Shown: in pieces, positions 21,113-29,165 of the stretch | Layout: every line of letters starts with the position of its first letter | How positions within the stretch are numbered: the stretch's first letter is position 1 | Origin: Myxococcaceae bacterium | GTDB taxonomy: Bacteria; Myxococcota; Myxococcia; Myxococcales; Myxococcaceae | Assembly: GCA_019694595.1 (NCBI GenBank) | Contig: JAIBBQ010000050.1 | Location: 1 to 35,224 of the forward strand | Direction: 5' to 3' | DNA length: 35,224 nucleotides | Notes under the pieces: generated by a model | The model's input: the letters and a program-made list of their open reading frames with translations, nothing else | The model's database searches: none | Told to the model about the DNA's origin: nothing | Made by a program: the position numbers and the translations under genes

Positions 21113-22546
21113 TCACGGCGGCCCGAGCAGCCCGGCCGCAGGCCCAGGACCTTCGAGCGTCTGCAGGAACGCCGCGAGGTCCGATCGCTCGCGCTCGCTC
21201 AGGCCCAGCGCGTGGAGCTCGTTGGTCCCCGGGTAGCCGCCAGGGTCTCCGCCGCGGTCGAAGAAGTCGATCACCTGGGTGATGGTGCGCAGCTGGCCGG
21301 TGTGCATGAACGCCGGCCGCGAAGACGCACAGCGGAGCGTCGGGGTGCGGAACGCTCCGGCGAGCTCCGGTGCCACCGAGGAGGGCAGCCGGGCGTCGTC
21401 CCCGTCGCTGAAGGCGCTGCGGGTGTTCACCGGGCTGGCGATCGCCTTGGGCAGCCCGGCGACCGCCCCCGGGTCGTCGGCGTCGAGGAACACCACCGCC
21501 ACCGTCTCCGCCTTGAGCCCGACGTTGTGGAACTTCTGGTCCGAGAAGAACGGGCCCGCGTGGCAGGTGGCGCATTGCCCCTTGCCGACGAAGAGCGCGG
21601 CGCCGCGCTGCTCGGCGCGCGAGAGCGCCGCGGCGTCGCCGTGCATCCACCGATCGAACCGGCCCTGGCCACAGGTGAGCCTGCGCTCGTAGGCGGCGAT
21701 CGCCTTGCCGAGGTTCACCACCACGCGCAGCACGGCCTGGCGGTCGGCGGCGGCCAGGCCGTCGAACTCCGCGCCGTCGCCGGGGTTGCCGTGGCACTCG
21801 TACGTCTTCGGGGTGAGCTTGCGGCAGCCGGTGGTCGCCGCCGTCAACTGAGGGAAGCGCTTCGCATCGTCCAGCGCGGGCATCGGACCGAAGACCGCCT
21901 CGTACTCGGCGCGGTAGCGGGCGAAGACCTGCTCGGCGACGAAGAGGAGCGAGCTGTTCATCTCGTCGCGCGACTCGATGGGCCCGAAGACCTGGTTGAA
22001 GAGCGCGTCACGGCTCCCGTCCCACATCAGGAGCTTGGCCTGCCCCACGTCGAGCAGCGACGGAGTGCGGCGAAGGCCCCAGCCCGCGGCGAGGGAGATC
22101 TGGTGGCCCAGGGTGCGGGCGTCGGAGAAGCCGGCGTCGGCGACGTGGCAGCCGGCGCAGGAGACCTTGCCGGTCTCGCCGACGCGCCCGAGCGTCTCCG
22201 GGGAACCGTCGTTGTCGCCGTCGAGCAGCGCCCCGGAGAAGCCGGGGTCGAAGAAGAAGCGCTGGCCCAGCCGGGCGGCGGCGGCGGAGTCACCGAAGGC
22301 GTTGCTCACGTCGACCACCGGCCCGGGCAAGGCCTGCGGCGAGAGCGCCTCGAGGGCAGCCCTCTGCGCCGACGTGAAGAGCGGCGCCGGGTCGTTCGGA
22401 TCCTCTCCAGCGTCGGCGGTGCCCGCGTCGAGCTCTCCGGCGTCCACGCCGGCGTCCGGACGGTCGACACCGGAGTCGGGCCCCGAGGTGCCTGGAGCGC
22501 ACGCGGCGACGGTCGCGAGGAGCGCCAGGGCGAGGCGCTGGCTCAC
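21113..22546 (-). CDS. Diheme cytochrome c peroxidase / MauG-family lipoprotein
   Basis: A 477-residue exported diheme protein. The start MSQRLALALLATVAAC is a lipoprotein signal (Cys16). A DAG-repeat acidic linker (to about residue 52) leads to the CCP/MauG domain. Two heme c sites are visible: CAGCH (130-134) and CATCH (325-329). LGQRFFFDPGFSG, TPSLLDVG, MWDGSRDALFNQ, PIESRDEMN, FRTPTLR and FMHTGQL are family motifs. An insertion with two extra Cys (about 241 and 251) may form a disulfide. The family either detoxifies peroxide or oxidises residues of a partner protein (MauG, MbnH). The GTG overlaps the stop of the upstream Trp-rich lipoprotein gene, so the two are made together, and the partner may be its substrate. 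Confidence 0.93.
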   Translation of the reverse strand: MSQRLALALLATVAACAPGTSGPDSGVDRPDAGVDAGELDAGTADAGEDPNDPAPLFTSAQRAALEALSPQALPGPVVDVSNAFGDSAAAARLGQRFFFDPGFSGALLDGDNDGSPETLGRVGETGKVSCAGCHVADAGFSDARTLGHQISLAAGWGLRRTPSLLDVGQAKLLMWDGSRDALFNQVFGPIESRDEMNSSLLFVAEQVFARYRAEYEAVFGPMPALDDAKRFPQLTAATTGCRKLTPKTYECHGNPGDGAEFDGLAAADRQAVLRVVVNLGKAIAAYERRLTCGQGRFDRWMHGDAAALSRAEQRGAALFVGKGQCATCHAGPFFSDQKFHNVGLKAETVAVVFLDADDPGAVAGLPKAIASPVNTRSAFSDGDDARLPSSVAPELAGAFRTPTLRCASSRPAFMHTGQLRTITQVIDFFDRGGDPGGYPGTNELHALGLSERERSDLAAFLQTLEGPGPAAGLLGPP

Positions 22547-24822
22547 TGCAGCCCCGAGGCGGGCACGCAGGGGAAGCGGTTCGTGTCCCAGGCCGGCTCG
22601 GCGACGCCGCTCGAGAAGCCGAGGTTGTCCCAGTGCCGGCTGGACATGACCTGCTGGTGATCGATCCAGTGGGTGGCCCAGCTGCCGAGGTCGACGCCCG
22701 AGTGGTAGAGCACGTTGCCGAAGGTGACGGTGGCCGGGCCCGCGGGGAACTTGCCCGCCGGGAGATCGACGCAGCCGTACGGCTGGCCGCCGAAGAAGAC
22801 GTAGACGCGCTGGGTGCTGGCGTAGACGTCGACGCGCGAGACGCGGTCGCCGCCCGCCTGGTCGATCATCTCCGGGTTGGGTGCGAGGAACGACGTGGCG
22901 CCGGACTTCAGGTGGTACAGGTCCCACCGCGGGCACTGGTTGTTCACGTCCCAGGTGCGGTGATCGCAGAGCTGCACCTGCAGATCGACCGGCCCGTCGC
23001 CGATCGTCTGCACGATGATCGTGGTGCCGGCGGCGAGGTTGTCCTGCACCGGCCAGCTGCGGTCGGAGATCAGCACCTGGGGGTAGCGCCGGCCGGTCGA
23101 GAACCAGTCGACCTCGAAGGTGGTGTGGAGGAACGAGGCCGCCGCCATGGTGCCCTTGGTCTTGGGGGTGAGGCGGAACTTGCCGTTGGTGTCGGCCGCC
23201 CAGTCCGCGAAGGTGACCCAGAGTTCCCCCATCACCACGCCGAGGCCCCACTCGACGGAGGCGGTCGAATAGAAGCCGGCGTTGAAGGTCGGGCTGTCCA
23301 TGAAGGTGGTCTTGAAGCCCGCGTTGGTGGGGGCCGAGAAGGTCTCCGCCTGGGCGAAGCTGGCCGACCAGTCCATCGCGGGGAGCGGCGCGGGCGAGAC
23401 CTTGAGACACGCGCGGGCCACCGGCCGGGGCCTGCTGCTCGCGGCGCCCTGCCCGTTGACGAAGACCTCGCCGTTGGGGTCGGCGGCGCGGACCTGCGCC
23501 GGGGTGAGGAACGCCGGGTACGTCACCCCGTCCTCGGTGAGCGGCGCGCGCGCGGTGGGCGAGAGGTGGCCCTGGAACGGGCACTGCGCGTCGAGCGCCT
23601 CGACCACCAGCGTGGTGCTGCCGGTGAGACCCGACCAGCGCAGCCGGGAGATCGGCTGGCTCTGCTGGCGGTAGGCGCGCTGGAAGCGGGTCTCGCCCAC
23701 CACGAGCTCGTCGTGCGAGCGGCCGCAGCCGTTCTCGTAGAACACGCGCTTGAGCGCGCGGGTGCCCGCGGCCGGCGCGGACAGCACGTTGAAGGCCAGC
23801 GTCGGAGCGCCCCCGCGCGCCGTCTTCTCGGGGCCGTCGGTGAAGTAGAGCACCGCGTTGTTGTTGCCCTTGGCGGTGTACACGCCGCGGGTGACGCCGG
23901 TCTGCGCCGCGGCAGGCGCGTACCCGAGGATCCCGTCGTCGCGGAAGCGCTGGGTGAGCAGCGTGGTGCGGGTCGCCTCGCTCGTCGTGTAGGTCTTCAC
24001 CCGCGATTCGGTCCACCGCATGAAGTAGCAGGAGTTGTCGGCGTCGGTGGCGGAGTCGCCCAGCGCGTAGACCGGCACGCGATCCGCCGCGGGCGACGCG
24101 AAGAGGTAGCCGAGCGTCGCTTCCTGCGTGCTGCGGGTGTAGCCGCTGATCGACTGGGTGAGCTGGGTCTTCACCGCGCCGCTCTGCACCTGGGCGTTGT
24201 TCTCCAGCGTGCTCGCGGGAGCGGCCCGATCGCCGGCGCAGCGGTAGGTCGCGTTGCGCACCACGAGCACGCCGGCGTCGCTGGTGAGCACGTCGGCGGC
24301 CGAGGGCTGCAGGTACACGCGGTAGTCGCGGGCGCCGTCCACCGGTTCGAAGGTGATCTCCGCCGAGTCGTTGCGCACCACCGCGGCCACGTCCTGGAGG
24401 AGCGCGATGCCCGCGTCGTCGCCGTCGCACGGCACCGCGGTGATCACCACGCCGGTGCCGCCACCTGCGGCGCCGCCGCCGCTGGACGCAGTGCCTCCCG
24501 CAGCCCCGCCGCCCGAAGCGCCCTGCCCGCCGCCCGTCGACCCCTGCCCGCCGCCAGCGCCCGCCTGGCCTCCACCGCTGGCACCTTGCCCACCGCCGGA
24601 GGTGGCCTGGCCGCCACCGGCCCCTTCGAGACTTCCGCCGCCGCTGGCCTGGGTGCCTCCGCCCGAGCCGCCGCCGCTGCTGACGGCGCCTCCGGCAGCG
24701 CCGCCACCTGCGCTGCCCATCTGGCCAACACCTTCGCCACAGGCGGTGAGCGCGATCAGTGCCGCCACCGAGAAGAGCCGCAGAGCGCCGAGGGTCATGC
24801 CCAGGGGCTGAGCAATCGACAT
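22543..24822 (-). CDS. Large Trp-rich lipoprotein of unknown function, partner of the diheme enzyme
   Basis: A 759-residue protein. The leader (MSIAQPLGMTLGALRLFSVA then ALIALTAC) has its lipobox Cys at 28. GAGG just upstream favours this ATG over one eight codons later. Residues 36-124 are a Gly/Ser/Ala/Gln linker with GGGQxxx repeats. An Fn3-like strand pattern follows (AEITFEPVDGARDYRVYLQP). The last 277 residues contain 12 Trp and look beta-rich, perhaps lectin- or LamG-like (for example RVYVFFGGQPYGCVDLPAGK). No enzyme motif was found. It is the first gene of a two-gene unit with the diheme MauG-family protein (GTGA). I do not recognise the family. Confidence 0.8.
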   Translation of the reverse strand: MSIAQPLGMTLGALRLFSVAALIALTACGEGVGQMGSAGGGAAGGAVSSGGGSGGGTQASGGGSLEGAGGGQATSGGGQGASGGGQAGAGGGQGSTGGGQGASGGGAAGGTASSGGGAAGGGTGVVITAVPCDGDDAGIALLQDVAAVVRNDSAEITFEPVDGARDYRVYLQPSAADVLTSDAGVLVVRNATYRCAGDRAAPASTLENNAQVQSGAVKTQLTQSISGYTRSTQEATLGYLFASPAADRVPVYALGDSATDADNSCYFMRWTESRVKTYTTSEATRTTLLTQRFRDDGILGYAPAAAQTGVTRGVYTAKGNNNAVLYFTDGPEKTARGGAPTLAFNVLSAPAAGTRALKRVFYENGCGRSHDELVVGETRFQRAYRQQSQPISRLRWSGLTGSTTLVVEALDAQCPFQGHLSPTARAPLTEDGVTYPAFLTPAQVRAADPNGEVFVNGQGAASSRPRPVARACLKVSPAPLPAMDWSASFAQAETFSAPTNAGFKTTFMDSPTFNAGFYSTASVEWGLGVVMGELWVTFADWAADTNGKFRLTPKTKGTMAAASFLHTTFEVDWFSTGRRYPQVLISDRSWPVQDNLAAGTTIIVQTIGDGPVDLQVQLCDHRTWDVNNQCPRWDLYHLKSGATSFLAPNPEMIDQAGGDRVSRVDVYASTQRVYVFFGGQPYGCVDLPAGKFPAGPATVTFGNVLYHSGVDLGSWATHWIDHQQVMSSRHWDNLGFSSGVAEPAWDTNRFPCVPASGLQ
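24514..24618 (-). repeat. Five 21-base repeats encoding GGGQxxx
   Basis: Residues 69-103 of the Trp-rich lipoprotein consist of five consecutive 7-residue units beginning GGGQ (followed by ATS, GAS, AGA, GST and GAS). They form the core of a longer Gly-rich linker (residues 36-124). Such repeats can vary in copy number by slippage. The linker probably holds the folded domain away from the membrane. Confidence 0.7.
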
Positions 24823-24976: not shown

Positions 24977-25687
24977 GTGGAGTCCCAGGCGTCCAGCGGC
25001 ATCACCGTCGCCACCCCGGAACGGGTGGCGCTCGACCTTCCGGTGGCGGGCATCGGGCACCGCGCGCTCGCCTGGCTGGCGGATGCTGGGGTGATGTTCG
25101 TCGCCCTGTTGCTCGTCTACTTCGTCTATTCGCTGGTGGGCCGCAGCGTGCTCGAGGTGGCGCAGGATCTCTCGGGAGCCGGCCGCGCGGTCGCCCTGCT
25201 CGCCGGGTTCGCCATCCTCCAGGGGTACTGGTCGGGCTTCGAGATCGCCTGGCGGGGACAGACGCCGGGCAAGCGGCTGCTGCGCATTCGCGTGGTGCGG
25301 CGCGATGGCGCCCCAGCTTCGGCCTTCGAGCTGGTCACCCGCAACCTGCTGCGGGCGATCGACTTCCTGCCCATGTGCTACCCGGCCGGCGTGGTGACCA
25401 TGCTCGTCGATCGCCACCACCGGAGGCTGGGCGACCTGGTGGCGGGCACCGTGCTGGTGCGCGAGGAGCGCATCGCGCTGTCTCGCTACACCGACGCCGC
25501 CGCTTCGACGCTCCCGGTGGCCCAGTTCGAGACGGTGACTGCGTTGCTCGCGCGCTGGGACATGCTGGAGCCCGAGGCCCGGCTCCGGGTGGCGTCGGGG
25601 GTGCTGACCGGGCTCGGCCAGCCCACGCCCGGCGACGAGGCCTCGGCCCGGGCGTCGCTGGAGCGCTTGCTGAGGCGCGATGGCTGA
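24977..25687 (+). CDS. RDD family membrane protein
   Basis: A 236-residue inner-membrane protein from a GTG start. The RDD domain (about 20-162) has three hydrophobic helices (AGVMFVALLLVYFVYSLVG; AVALLAGFAILQGYW; IDFLPMCYPAGVVTMLV) and the typical segments GIGHRALAWLADA, TPGKRLLRIRVVRRDG and RRLGDLVAGTVLVR. In this copy the namesake Arg-Asp-Asp triplet is degenerate. A soluble C-terminal part of about 70 residues follows. RDD genes are often next to SpoIIM-like genes, as here (8-base overlap), and frequently near MoxR/DUF58 clusters, which are not seen in this window. Confidence 0.9.
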   Translation: MESQASSGITVATPERVALDLPVAGIGHRALAWLADAGVMFVALLLVYFVYSLVGRSVLEVAQDLSGAGRAVALLAGFAILQGYWSGFEIAWRGQTPGKRLLRIRVVRRDGAPASAFELVTRNLLRAIDFLPMCYPAGVVTMLVDRHHRRLGDLVAGTVLVREERIALSRYTDAAASTLPVAQFETVTALLARWDMLEPEARLRVASGVLTGLGQPTPGDEASARASLERLLRRDG

Positions 25688-26660
25688 GCCGATCACCGCG
25701 TTCGTCGCCCGCCGAGAACCCGACTGGCGCGCCCTGGAGGCGTTGCTGGAACGCCTCGAGCGATCGACGCTCACGCTGGCGGAGATCGAGCAGCTCGACC
25801 GGCTGTACCGGCGGGCGAGCGCCGACCTGGCGCGGGCGCAGGCGAGCTACCCCGGCACCGATGCGGCACGGTTCCTCAACCAGCTCTGCGGGCGGGCCTA
25901 CGGCGGCGTGTACCGGCCGACGGTCAATCGCCTGGGGGCGCTCAAGCGCTTCTACGCCGTCGAGCTCCCCGGGCTGGTGCGCGCCGAGTGGCGGGCGATC
26001 GCGGTGAGCGCGGCGCTCATGGGGCTCGGGGTGATCCTCGGCGCGACCACCGTGGCGCTGGAGCCGACCGGGGTCGCCCTGCTGGTGCCGGATCAGATCC
26101 AGGAGACGGTGGCCCGGGGCCAGCTGTGGACCGACACCATCGAAGGCCAGTCGGCGTCCTCCGAGCTGGCGGTGCGCATCCTCACCAACAACCTGCAGGT
26201 GACGCTGCAGGTCTTCGCCTTCGGGCTCACCTTCGGGGTGCTCACCGTGGTGGGGCTGCTCGCCAACGGCCTGCAGATCGGCGCGCTGGTCACCCACTGC
26301 TTCCAGCACGGGCTGGGCGGAGGCCTGCTGGTCTTCATGGCGGCGCACGGCCCGCTCGAGCTGTCGATCATCGCCATCTCCGGCGGCGCAGGGCTGCTGC
26401 TCGCCCAGGGCCTGCTGCTGCCTGGCGAACGGACGCGCGCCGAGGCGCTGCGAACGCGTGGCGCGCGCGCGGTGCGGCTGGTGCTGGGGTGTGCGCCGAT
26501 CCTGGCGCTGACCGGGGTGATCGAAGGCTTCGTCAGCCCGGGACACCTGTTTCCCGCGCCGGCCAAGATCGCGCTCGGCCTGACGCTGGGCTGCGTGTTC
26601 TGGCTCTGGCTCCTGCGGTCAGGCCGCGGCGCCGGGCAGCTCGGCGACGACGGGCGCTGA
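25680..26660 (+). CDS. SpoIIM / DUF95 family membrane protein
   Basis: A 326-residue membrane protein. A cytoplasmic helical part (about 1-95, with DWRALEALLERLE and DRLYRRASADLARAQ) is followed by about five TM segments (for example IAVSAALMGLGVILGA and VFAFGLTFGVLTVVGLLANG). NNLQVTLQVFAFG and HGPLELSIIAISGGAGL match the stage II sporulation protein M family. Outside endospore formers these proteins are of unknown function and usually pair with RDD proteins. The ATG lies inside the end of the RDD gene. Its 3' end overlaps the convergent J-domain gene by 42 bases. Confidence 0.9.
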   Translation: MAEPITAFVARREPDWRALEALLERLERSTLTLAEIEQLDRLYRRASADLARAQASYPGTDAARFLNQLCGRAYGGVYRPTVNRLGALKRFYAVELPGLVRAEWRAIAVSAALMGLGVILGATTVALEPTGVALLVPDQIQETVARGQLWTDTIEGQSASSELAVRILTNNLQVTLQVFAFGLTFGVLTVVGLLANGLQIGALVTHCFQHGLGGGLLVFMAAHGPLELSIIAISGGAGLLLAQGLLLPGERTRAEALRTRGARAVRLVLGCAPILALTGVIEGFVSPGHLFPAPAKIALGLTLGCVFWLWLLRSGRGAGQLGDDGR

Positions 26661-27122
26661 ACCCGCGCCCAGGCGTTCCTGGCGGCGCTTCTCGCGGTGC
26701 GACTGCACCTTCTCGTACGCCTCGTTGAGCGCGCGCATCTTGTCCGCCGAGCCGCCGCGGTCCGGGTGGTGCTCCCGGGCGAGCTCGAGGTAGCGCTCGC
26801 GCACCCGCTCCTCGGTGTCGAAGGGCGAGACCCCGAGCATGCGGTAGGGGTCCTGGTCGTCGAGGGCGTTGAGCCAGCGCTCCAGCCGCGCCTTGACCTG
26901 GTCGAAGGCGGTCGGCGCGGCAGGTCTCGGCGCGCGGGTGCGGAACTTGGCGTCGGCGCGGAAGACCTCGGTGTACAGGCTCGAGACCCAGCGGTGGCAG
27001 CGCGCACAGTGGAAGTAGCGGACGGGCGAGCCAGCCGTGTGCTGGGTCGTCATCCGGATCCCGCAGTGGGTGCACTCGACGTCGACGTCTTCCAGGGTCA
27101 CGGTGGCGGCGCGCTGGCGCAA
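26619..27122 (-). CDS. Zinc-ribbon and J-domain protein
   Basis: A 167-residue protein if the TTG start is used (AGGA 10 bases upstream). A GTG seven codons later is the alternative and lacks a ribosome-binding site. The N-terminus has two Cys pairs (CTHC 17-20, CARC 39-42) forming a zinc ribbon. A basic/Pro linker leads to a J-domain near the C-terminus (about 90-145): DPYRMLGVSP, YLELAREHHPDRGGS with HPD at 119-121, and MRALNEAYEKV. J-domains stimulate Hsp70 ATPase. Type I DnaJ proteins have the J-domain first and a four-repeat zinc domain in the middle, so this is a different, likely specialised co-chaperone. It is divergent from the HEAT gene. Confidence 0.85.
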   Translation of the reverse strand: MRQRAATVTLEDVDVECTHCGIRMTTQHTAGSPVRYFHCARCHRWVSSLYTEVFRADAKFRTRAPRPAAPTAFDQVKARLERWLNALDDQDPYRMLGVSPFDTEERVRERYLELAREHHPDRGGSADKMRALNEAYEKVQSHREKRRQERLGAGSAPVVAELPGAAA

Positions 27123-27218
27123 GGTCGTGGGTTCCTTTCCACTGCTACAGATCTGCAGCCCGTTGTACCGTCGCCGTGACGCGGCGCAAGAAAACGGCCG
27201 CGCATCGCGGAGGACCAC

Positions 27219-27755
27219 GTGAGAGACGCCCTTCCCCTGCTGCTCCTGGCAGCGTCGACCGCCTTCGGGGCCGGCAACAAGCTCGGCAGCCCGCGGGAAG
27301 ACGACGCCCCCGCCGTCGCCAAGCTGGGCCCGGCGAGCGAGGAGCCGGCGCTGCTGCGCGGACTGCTGTGGGCCTTCGAGCCCGCGCCCTCGGAGATCCG
27401 GGTGCTGGCGGTGGAAGACCTGGGGCTCCTCGGCGATCCCCGTGCGCTGAACGCGCTGGCGCAGCTGATCGGCGACTCGAACCCCATGGTGCAGACGGCG
27501 GCGATCCGCGCCATCGGCGCCATGCGGAACCCGCGGGCGGAAGAGATCCTCTCCAACGTGGTGCGCCACCCGAGCCTGCCGGAGAAGCTCAAGGTGCAGG
27601 CGATCGAGACGCTGTTGCTCCAGAACACGCGCAGCTCGCTGCTCTTCCTGCACCTGGTGGCGCGCAGCCCGCTCTTCTCGTTCAACCTGCAGAACGCGGC
27701 GCGCCGCGTGCTCCAGAACACCACGCCCGAGGCCATGGGCCGCACGGGGACCTGA
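27219..27755 (+). CDS. Exported HEAT-repeat protein
   Basis: A 178-residue protein from a GTG preceded by a strong GGAGG. The leader MRDALPLLLLAASTAFGAG suggests export to the periplasm. Helical repeats follow: SEIRVLAVEDLGLLGDPRAL, PMVQTAAIRAIGAMRNPRAE, and a third around LKVQAIETLLLQN. The pattern is of HEAT or PBS-lyase type, which mediates protein binding. The TGA shares one base with the proC start (TGATG), so the two are coupled, though a functional link between a secreted HEAT protein and proline synthesis is not obvious. Confidence 0.82.
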   Translation: MRDALPLLLLAASTAFGAGNKLGSPREDDAPAVAKLGPASEEPALLRGLLWAFEPAPSEIRVLAVEDLGLLGDPRALNALAQLIGDSNPMVQTAAIRAIGAMRNPRAEEILSNVVRHPSLPEKLKVQAIETLLLQNTRSSLLFLHLVARSPLFSFNLQNAARRVLQNTTPEAMGRTGT

Positions 27756-28597
27756 TGATCGAGCGCACCCTCGCCTTCCTGGGCGCCGGCAACATGGGCG
27801 CCGCCATCATTCACGGCCTGCTCCGCTCCGGGACCAAGGCCGAGCGGATCATCGCCACCGTCCGGCGCGACGAGAAGGCCAAGGAGCTGGAGCGCTCGGC
27901 CCCGGGGATCCGGGTGCTGCGCGACAACCTCCAGGCGACCAAGGAAGCCGACGTGGTGATCCTCGGCGTCAAGCCGCAGGCGATGGAGAAGCTGCTCGCC
28001 ACCGTCGGCCCGGCGCTCGACGGCTCGAAGCTGGTCATCTCCATCGCGGCCGGCGTGCCCATCGCCGCGCTGGAGCGGAAGATCCCCGGGCGGGCGCGGA
28101 TCATCCGCACCATGCCCAACACGCCGGCACTGGTGGGCCGAGGGGCCACTGCCATCTCCCCCGGAGCCTTCGCCACCGACGACGACCTGGCGCTGGCGAC
28201 CCGCATCTTCGACGCGGTGGGCATCACCACGGTGGTCGACGAGTCGCTCCTCGACGCGGTGACCGGGCTGTCCGGCTCCGGCCCTGCCTACGTGTTCCTG
28301 GTCATCGAGGCCCTCAGCGACGCGGGGGTGAAGGTCGGGCTCTCGCGCCACGTGGCGCTCAAGCTCGCCGCGCAGACGGTGCTGGGCAGTGCCCAGCTGC
28401 TGATCGAGACCCAGGCGCACCCCGGCGCGCTGAAGGATCAGGTCACCTCGCCCGGAGGCACCGCGATCGCCGGCCTGCACACCCTGGAAGCCGGCGGGCT
28501 GCGCACCACGCTGATCGACGCGGTGGAGGCGGCTTCCCAGCGCGCCAAGGAGCTGGGCGAGGCCTTCCTCGAGAAGGTCAGCCGGTCGGAATCGTGA
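27755..28597 (+). CDS. proC: Pyrroline-5-carboxylate reductase
   Basis: A 280-residue enzyme of normal length that reduces 1-pyrroline-5-carboxylate to proline with NAD(P)H, the last step of proline synthesis. The N-terminal Rossmann motif is FLGAGNMGAAIIHGLL. VVILGVKPQAM, MPNTPALVGRGATAI, and the signature around LSGSGPAYVFLVIEAL and DQVTSPGGTAIAGLHTLE are all present. The start ATG overlaps the stop of the HEAT gene by one base. divIVA follows after 64 bases that contain a promoter-like sequence. Confidence 0.97.
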   Translation: MIERTLAFLGAGNMGAAIIHGLLRSGTKAERIIATVRRDEKAKELERSAPGIRVLRDNLQATKEADVVILGVKPQAMEKLLATVGPALDGSKLVISIAAGVPIAALERKIPGRARIIRTMPNTPALVGRGATAISPGAFATDDDLALATRIFDAVGITTVVDESLLDAVTGLSGSGPAYVFLVIEALSDAGVKVGLSRHVALKLAAQTVLGSAQLLIETQAHPGALKDQVTSPGGTAIAGLHTLEAGGLRTTLIDAVEAASQRAKELGEAFLEKVSRSES

Positions 28598-28622
28598 CCC
28601 TCGCGGGGGTGCGTGGGATAAC
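28594..28622 (+). promoter_or_regulatory. Putative promoter of divIVA
   Basis: GTGACC is followed after 17 bases by GATAAC, four of six matches in each element to the sigma-70 consensus. It begins at the end of proC and leaves a leader of about 35 bases before divIVA. This is a weak, unverified match. Confidence 0.3.
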
Positions 28623-28661
28623 CGCACCGATCCGCTCCCGCTTCGCTCCGAGGTGCCCGCG

Positions 28662-29165
28662 ATGAAGATGACCCCCCTGGACGTGCGCCAGAAGCGCTTC
28701 GAGCGCGCGTTCCGCGGCTATGCCACCCGGGAAGTCGAAGGCTTCCTCGAGCTCGCCGCCTCCGAGCTGGAAGACGTGGTGCGCGAGAACATCTCGCTCA
28801 AGGAAGAGTTGCAGCGGGTGCAGGCGCGGCTCGAGCACCACCAGGACCGCGAGAAGACGCTGCAGGAGACGATGGTCACCGCCCAGCGCATCAGCGAGGA
28901 CGTGAAGGCCCAGGCCCACAAGGAAGCCGAGGTGATCCTCGCCGAGGCGGAGCTCAAGGCCGACAAGATCGTGGCCCAGGCCAACGGCCGGCTCACCGGC
29001 CTGGTGAGCGAGATCAACGAGCTCAAGCGTCAGAAGGTGCAGTTCGAGGCCCAGCTGTCTTCGGTCATCGACAGCCACCAGAAGTTGCTGGAGACGTTCC
29101 GCGCGGCGGAGGCCGCCGACGTCGCCTTCCTGCTCCAGAAGCGCTCGGGCAACGAAAAGCCCTGA
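28662..29165 (+). CDS. divIVA: DivIVA domain protein
   Basis: A 167-residue coiled-coil protein. The N-terminal DivIVA signature is clear: MTPLDVRQKRFERAFRGY followed by EVEGFLELAASELE. The rest (about 40-150) is continuous heptad-rich coiled coil (LKEELQRVQARLEHHQD; INELKRQKVQFEAQL). DivIVA proteins recognise curved membrane and organise polar growth, division or chromosome attachment. The ATG is preceded by GAGGTG with a 6-base gap; a GTG nine bases earlier is less likely because it is part of that ribosome-binding site. Its exact role in a Gram-negative bacterium is unclear. Confidence 0.92.
   Translation: MKMTPLDVRQKRFERAFRGYATREVEGFLELAASELEDVVRENISLKEELQRVQARLEHHQDREKTLQETMVTAQRISEDVKAQAHKEAEVILAEAELKADKIVAQANGRLTGLVSEINELKRQKVQFEAQLSSVIDSHQKLLETFRAAEAADVAFLLQKRSGNEKP

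Follow-up and report, generated by a model that had tools for sequence, protein, structure and literature searches.

A conserved myxobacterial gene pair for a diheme CCP_MauG-family lipoprotein and a partner lipoprotein with a predicted lectin-type fold

Two overlapping lipoprotein genes

We analysed 35,224 nucleotides of a Myxococcaceae genome (GenBank assembly GCA_019694595.1, contig JAIBBQ010000050.1, positions 1 to 35,224), referred to here as the window. The window encodes a diheme enzyme of the superfamily that contains cytochrome c peroxidase (CCP) and MauG and, next to it, a second lipoprotein that we call the partner. Across myxobacteria these two genes form a conserved pair that in most of the genomes found to carry it lies inside an exopolysaccharide locus. 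The original prediction, made from the letters of the window, had described a diheme CCP/MauG lipoprotein gene overlapping by GTGA the gene of a 759-residue lipoprotein whose 277 C-terminal residues contain 12 Trp, and this is exactly what we find. The two genes carry the following features:

22543..24822, minus strand: coding sequence of the partner lipoprotein, 759 residues (open reading frame; homologues in 13 other myxobacterial genomes)
24739..24822, minus strand: partner signal peptide with lipobox LTAC, ending at Cys28 (sequence; Cys28 invariant in 14/14 members)
24457..24738, minus strand: partner Gly/Ser-rich flexible linker, residues 29-122 (sequence)
23383..24402, minus strand: partner FnIII-like beta domain, interrupted by an insertion present in group A only (structure-model strands; alignment gap in group B)
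23830..24015, minus strand: DUF5648-like stretch within the partner insertion, residues 270-331 (Pfam accession PF18885, E 0.0074, under the cut-off)
22546..23376, minus strand: partner C-terminal Trp-rich domain, residues 483-759, predicted ConA-like lectin/GH16-type beta-sandwich (AlphaFold2 model, Foldseek and VIA-align)
22543..22546, minus strand: GTGA overlap of partner stop and enzyme start (sequence)
21113..22546, minus strand: coding sequence of the diheme CCP_MauG-family lipoprotein, 477 residues, GTG start (open reading frame; Pfam accession PF03150)
22145..22159, minus strand: CAGCH motif (residues 130-134) of the first heme, which is expected to be high-spin and to react with peroxide (sequence, alignment to bacterial CCPs)
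22022..22024, minus strand: Trp175, located between the hemes and equivalent to MauG Trp93 (alignment; invariant in 14/14)
21962..21994, minus strand: Gln185, Pro189 and Glu195, equivalents of MauG Gln103, Pro107 and Glu113, peroxide pocket (spacing and alignment; roles from PMC6405878)
21560..21574, minus strand: CATCH motif (residues 325-329) of the second heme, which is expected to transfer electrons (sequence, alignment)
21260..21262, minus strand: Phe429, sixth-ligand position of the second heme (alignment columns of 56 family members, solved CCPs)

The enzyme matches the CCP_MauG family (5e-26; 92.6 bits against a gathering score of 25.6) and contains two CxxCH motifs, which places it in the superfamily. 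Its lipobox is VAAC, ending at Cys16, and both proteins are predicted to be lipid-anchored. An alternative downstream start of the partner (ATG at about 24798) also gives a good predicted signal peptide. In the partner alignment, the Gly/Ser linker is long in the window and at locus L058 and short or absent in most members. The FnIII-like label is a reading of how the strands at 6-55 and about 252-335 are arranged in the structure model. DUF5648 matches occur in three members of the partner family, the best at 1.1e-5.

The pair is conserved and co-inherited

We identified partner genes in 14 genomes: 10 among 98 related genomes, one in a genome collection (a Polyangiaceae metagenome-assembled genome) and three when 195 genomes of the phylum were searched with a profile. 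Beyond Myxococcota, the search consisted of one scan of the genome collection with the window protein alone and one plasmid search, which returned no plasmid-borne copies; the family may be spread more widely. Genes around the loci were called with a simple script.

A CCP_MauG diheme gene is the immediate neighbour of the partner at all 14 loci. Strong matches to this family number just 2-8 per genome in the genomes searched with it, and the adjacency is far beyond chance. The genes are divergent in nine genomes, convergent in G111, in tandem with the partner first in the window, G098 and G077, and in tandem with the enzyme first in G082. That adjacency survives four arrangements argues for a functional bond between the two genes. 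The original prediction had allowed that the lipoprotein might occur mostly without the diheme gene; among the 14 partner-bearing genomes there is no such case. The reverse, an enzyme without a detectable partner, is found in G157, G162 and many more distant relatives.

Partner and enzyme have also diverged in parallel. In a mirror-tree comparison, their distances correlate at r = 0.94 overall and at 0.91 within the larger of two subfamilies, where none of 10,000 permutations reached as high a value. Group A contains the enzymes of the window, G098 and G082 (tree support 100/100), and group B those of the remaining eleven pair genomes together with the partner-less G157 and G162 (support 100/99). 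In group A partners, the FnIII-like domain is interrupted by an insertion that contains the DUF5648-like stretch; group B partners show a gap there. Group B enzymes end in PW..WP. The window genome has kin of the same family in group B, yet both of its pair proteins group with those of G098 and G082; the divergence pattern is common to partner and enzyme and departs from kinship. Group B includes several closely related genomes, and counts given here are counts of non-independent events. These observations support the reading that the two envelope lipoproteins are conserved and inherited as a pair, and they bear on the conservation as neighbours that the original prediction had wanted tested.

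Exopolysaccharide genes surround most pairs

The pair lies inside an exopolysaccharide (eps-type) locus in 10 of the 14 genomes; in the window genome it lies outside. Genes around the relatives' pairs encode WecG/TagA glycosyltransferases, hexapeptide acetyltransferases, Wzz, GT2, OPX, flippase, polysaccharide deacetylase and GH44 proteins. WecG/TagA genes are present once per pair genome, or twice in G008 and G077. Nine of the 14 genomes have a WecG gene at most about 7 kb from the pair. In G082, a Poly_export (OPX) gene directly adjoins the pair. The order at L058 is OPX, a 410-residue protein that matches no Pfam family and takes the position of the beta-barrel, a response regulator, Wzz, GT2 and WecG, followed by the pair. 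These kinds of genes match those of the Myxococcus xanthus eps locus, which holds glycosyltransferases, a serine acetyltransferase, a glycosyl hydrolase, OPX and PCP (PMC7484181, PMC9601211). GH44 genes stand beside the pair in G008, G098 and G163, and the M. xanthus protein EpsB is predicted to be a glycosyl hydrolase. The GH44 glycoside hydrolase genes adjoining the pair were located at L080:591-2708, L056:2113-4698 and L077:11034-13352. Beside the partner-less enzymes of G157 and G162, polysaccharide genes were not found.

The surroundings of the window pair comprise RsmB, RDD, SpoIIM, DnaJ and DivIVA genes, and the WecG and OPX genes of this genome are on another contig. Of these neighbours, the RDD, SpoIIM, DnaJ and DivIVA-family genes (window positions 24977-29162) have no visible link to the pair. 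Because the window pair lies outside the eps locus, its exopolysaccharide link is by homology only.

The enzymes have lost the axial Tyr and Met

We compared the sixth-ligand column of the second heme across 56 family members. CCP-type sequences have Met there, which in the solved CCPs of the alignment is the sixth ligand, and Tyr stands there in every other MauG-like sequence. Partner-linked enzymes have Phe in group A (3/3) and His in group B (11/11), and the partner-less enzymes of G157 and G162 also have His. As judged from the alignment, the Phe/His switch is confined to the partner-linked enzymes and these two nearest partner-less kin. A hidden Tyr ligand near Phe429 was considered and rejected; no conserved Tyr lies nearby. 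The two partner-less group B enzymes are encoded at L111 (G162) and L112 (G157), with no partner gene detected in either genome. One of them adjoins a type I phosphodiesterase gene; the diheme enzyme BthA was reported downstream of a putative phosphatase.

Trp175, Gln185 and Glu195 are invariant in all 14 enzymes, which thus keep a MauG-like pocket and an inter-heme Trp. At the position of MauG Pro107, group A enzymes have Pro and most group B enzymes have Ala. On this basis, the pair enzymes should react with peroxide. The axial Tyr of MauG-like bis-Fe(IV) enzymes is absent from every pair enzyme. Tyr is the sixth ligand in MauG and BthA and is needed for bis-Fe(IV); changing it to His or Met in BthA abolished the bis-Fe(IV) signal and retained peroxidase turnover, and a change to His in MauG likewise lost the signal (PMC6405878). 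Long-range Trp chemistry of the MauG type is unlikely for the pair enzymes. RoxA, a CCP relative, has a bis-His second heme and a distal pocket without acid-base catalysts (PMC6797691). The hydrazine synthase gamma subunit offers a further precedent for His at this position of the second heme. For Phe, we found no precedent.

The enzyme scores far below the NCBIfam cut-offs for MauG (TIGR03791, 151.7 vs 443.85 bits) and MbnH (TIGR04039, 97.7 vs 362.85 bits) and is a member of neither family. Its nearest solved structure by sequence is 6e1c, titled 'Di-heme enzyme', which we take to be MbnH. The original prediction had raised the possibility that the enzyme clusters with classical peroxide-detoxifying CCPs. 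Our tree instead places it among MauG-like sequences and outside the Met-ligand CCP-type groups; neither the ligand nor the placement of a classical bacterial CCP is found. Its structure model (mean predicted local distance difference test, pLDDT, of 59.7) is too weak for placing heme ligands.

Two other sets of MauG-like genes were observed. A clade from L117, L118, L119, L121 and L123 keeps the axial Tyr and has the pocket Gln and Glu replaced (Leu, Val, Ile/Thr); because these two residues are lost, its members are probably not peroxidases. At L125-L130, Tyr-ligand MauG-like genes recur beside a gene with an outer-membrane-porin-like end (NDxFTSSLVxSY) and a small secreted gene ending in NKxGQPYGSY; one related small protein is cupredoxin-like (Pfam accession PF13473). 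These loci look like a second conserved MauG-like system.

The partner has a predicted lectin/glucanase-type fold

No NCBIfam model and no PDB entry matches the partner, and in Pfam it matches DUF5648 alone, below threshold. The partner family, which the original prediction did not recognise, is thus in none of the libraries that we searched. A copper-type MbnP was considered as its identity and rejected, since the partner fits no NCBIfam model.

The AlphaFold2 model of the partner has low-to-moderate confidence (mean pLDDT 62). Foldseek matches the C-terminal domain to ConA-like lectin/GH16 folds (E about 5e-6), and the top rows of VIA-align have Z 13.5-15.6 over 171-217 aligned residues with a root-mean-square deviation of 2.9-4.5. 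Matches at about Z 14 include GH16 laminarinases and the lectin domains of ERGIC-53/Emp47. The jelly-roll match predicts, at fold level only, that the domain belongs to the ConA-like lectin/glucanase superfamily. For the 277 residues whose family and structure the original prediction had wanted checked, the answer is this predicted fold and no known family. A conserved copy of the GH16 catalytic ExDxxE was not seen when the 11-member alignment of the domain was read by eye.

The 12 Trp of the window domain (4.3%) are the highest count among 11 members; the other ten have 6-10 (2.0-3.2%), with 6 in the window's closest relative. Forty positions are invariant over the 14 partners, and Trp is at none of them. 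A Trp-rich tail as a conserved trait of the family was rejected on these counts. Trp residues that lack conservation would, according to the original prediction, argue against its proposal. This is the case family-wide and not within the subfamilies, each of which has conserved Trp of its own: W513, W607, W648 and W731 in 11/11 group B partners, and W270, W396, W535, W624 and W745 in 3/3 group A partners. Window W731 is Phe in both other group A members. Residues invariant in 14/14 partners include R578, R579, Y580, D613, R672, Y706, H707, R729 and D732. Aromatic residues are common in the carbohydrate-binding clefts of lectin/glucanase-type proteins, and the partner Trp thus need no redox explanation.

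A possible surface module for exopolysaccharide

Since the two genes are always adjacent and usually lie within a slime-polysaccharide cluster, their products probably cooperate on the outer coat of the cell. We propose, with about an even chance of being right, that they form a conserved two-lipoprotein surface module in which a peroxide-type diheme enzyme and an uncatalogued polysaccharide-binding partner serve exopolysaccharide. Both proteins would be anchored by lipid on the outside of the myxobacterial envelope and may contact each other there. The partner would hold or recognise polysaccharide through its ConA-like lectin/glucanase-fold domain, aided by the FnIII-like domain. The enzyme would react with H2O2 at the first heme, where the pocket Trp, Gln and Glu are retained, and carry out peroxidase-type oxidation near the partner, the likeliest target being the polysaccharide or a bound compound. 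Alternatively, its role within the module may be simple removal of peroxide at the slime layer.

Several points weigh against this proposal. The pairs of the window, G098, G077 and G039 do not adjoin WecG or OPX genes, although G098 and G077 have other polysaccharide-type neighbours beside the pair. Many group B genomes are closely related, and the eps linkage therefore does not represent nine independent events. Both structure models are of limited confidence (mean pLDDT of 62 for the partner and 59.7 for the enzyme), and sugar binding does not follow from a ConA-like fold.

Other explanations were weighed against the same evidence. According to the original prediction, the enzyme would act as a maturase of the MauG/MbnH type and oxidise specific partner Trp to a quinone, kynurenine or cross-link. 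Strict gene pairing within this superfamily, the likeness to 6e1c (taken to be MbnH), the retained Trp175 and the subfamily-specific Trp (four in group B, five in group A) are consistent with such chemistry. No Trp, however, is among the 40 invariant partner residues, those present sit in a predicted lectin/glucanase-type fold, and every partner-linked enzyme has Phe or His for the axial Tyr, the His change being one by which both MauG and BthA lose the bis-Fe(IV) signal (PMC6405878). We now regard Trp residues of the partner as very unlikely substrates. Strict pairing would equally fit an enzyme that modifies conserved non-Trp residues (e.g. Tyr580, Tyr706 or His707) and so turns on lectin-fold binding or catalysis, and the nine residues listed above are invariant. 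A polysaccharide-binding or catalytic cleft would produce invariant residues just as well, and the axial Tyr is lost here too; we consider this reading possible but unlikely.

A plain peroxide-detoxifying CCP that lies near a surface protein by chance would account for the retained peroxide pocket, and the BthA variants with His or Met do keep peroxidase turnover (PMC6405878). Adjacency at 14/14 loci in four arrangements, correlated divergence, the missing Met ligand and the tree position outside the Met-ligand groups make it distinctly improbable. The bis-His second heme of RoxA (PMC6797691) and the His of group B might suggest a RoxA-like oxygenase whose substrate is a polymer bound to the partner. 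RoxA has no acid-base catalysts in its distal pocket, whereas Gln and Glu are invariant in the pair enzymes; the window enzyme has Phe rather than His and no RoxA family match in Pfam, and we hold this explanation to be extremely unlikely.

A more specific form of the module would have the Tyr-less diheme enzyme oxidatively modify conserved residues of the lectin-fold outer-membrane lipoprotein, activating it as an anchor or processing factor for social exopolysaccharide. We offer this as a speculation with a rather small chance of being correct. If true, oxidative activation of a lectin-fold lipoprotein would place a bacterial slime matrix under post-translational redox control. In myxobacteria, exopolysaccharide drives social motility and the formation of fruiting bodies, and its surface retention and finishing are poorly known. 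The Phe/His switch also offers a natural experiment on the part that the axial ligand plays in directing diheme enzymes towards peroxidase or protein-modifying chemistry. A literature search that combined cytochrome c peroxidase with Myxococcus exopolysaccharide gene clusters gave no account of the pair; as far as we found, no strict pairing of a redox enzyme with a lectin-fold lipoprotein in an exopolysaccharide locus has been described.

Comparison with known systems

MauG shares the diheme CCP_MauG fold family with the window enzyme, which keeps the equivalents of Trp93, Gln103, Pro107 and Glu113. The window enzyme differs in having Phe for the axial Tyr294; no mau genes were seen, and the partner is not methylamine dehydrogenase. 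The MbnH/MbnP system likewise places a diheme enzyme gene beside a gene for a secreted partner, but the window enzyme lacks the axial Tyr and its partner has the predicted ConA-like domain. BthA of Burkholderia is a diheme MauG-like peroxidase with one constant neighbour gene (PMC6405878). BthA keeps Tyr463 and has Ser at the inter-heme Trp position, whereas the window enzyme has Phe and keeps the Trp. The neighbour of BthA is a putative phosphatase, unlike the lectin-fold partner (PMC6405878).

Bacterial CCPs share the fold family and the peroxide pocket, and differ in their Met ligand (Phe/His in the pair enzymes) and in their separate position in the tree. RoxA and the hydrazine synthase gamma subunit are CCP/MauG relatives with a bis-His second heme and thus precedents for the group B His. 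RoxA lacks the acid-base residues, the gamma subunit works in a multi-subunit enzyme, and neither explains the group A Phe. The partner domain, finally, has the same predicted fold as ConA-like lectins and GH16 glucanases (Z about 14), but is only 6-14% identical to them in the listed alignments, with no conserved ExDxxE seen.

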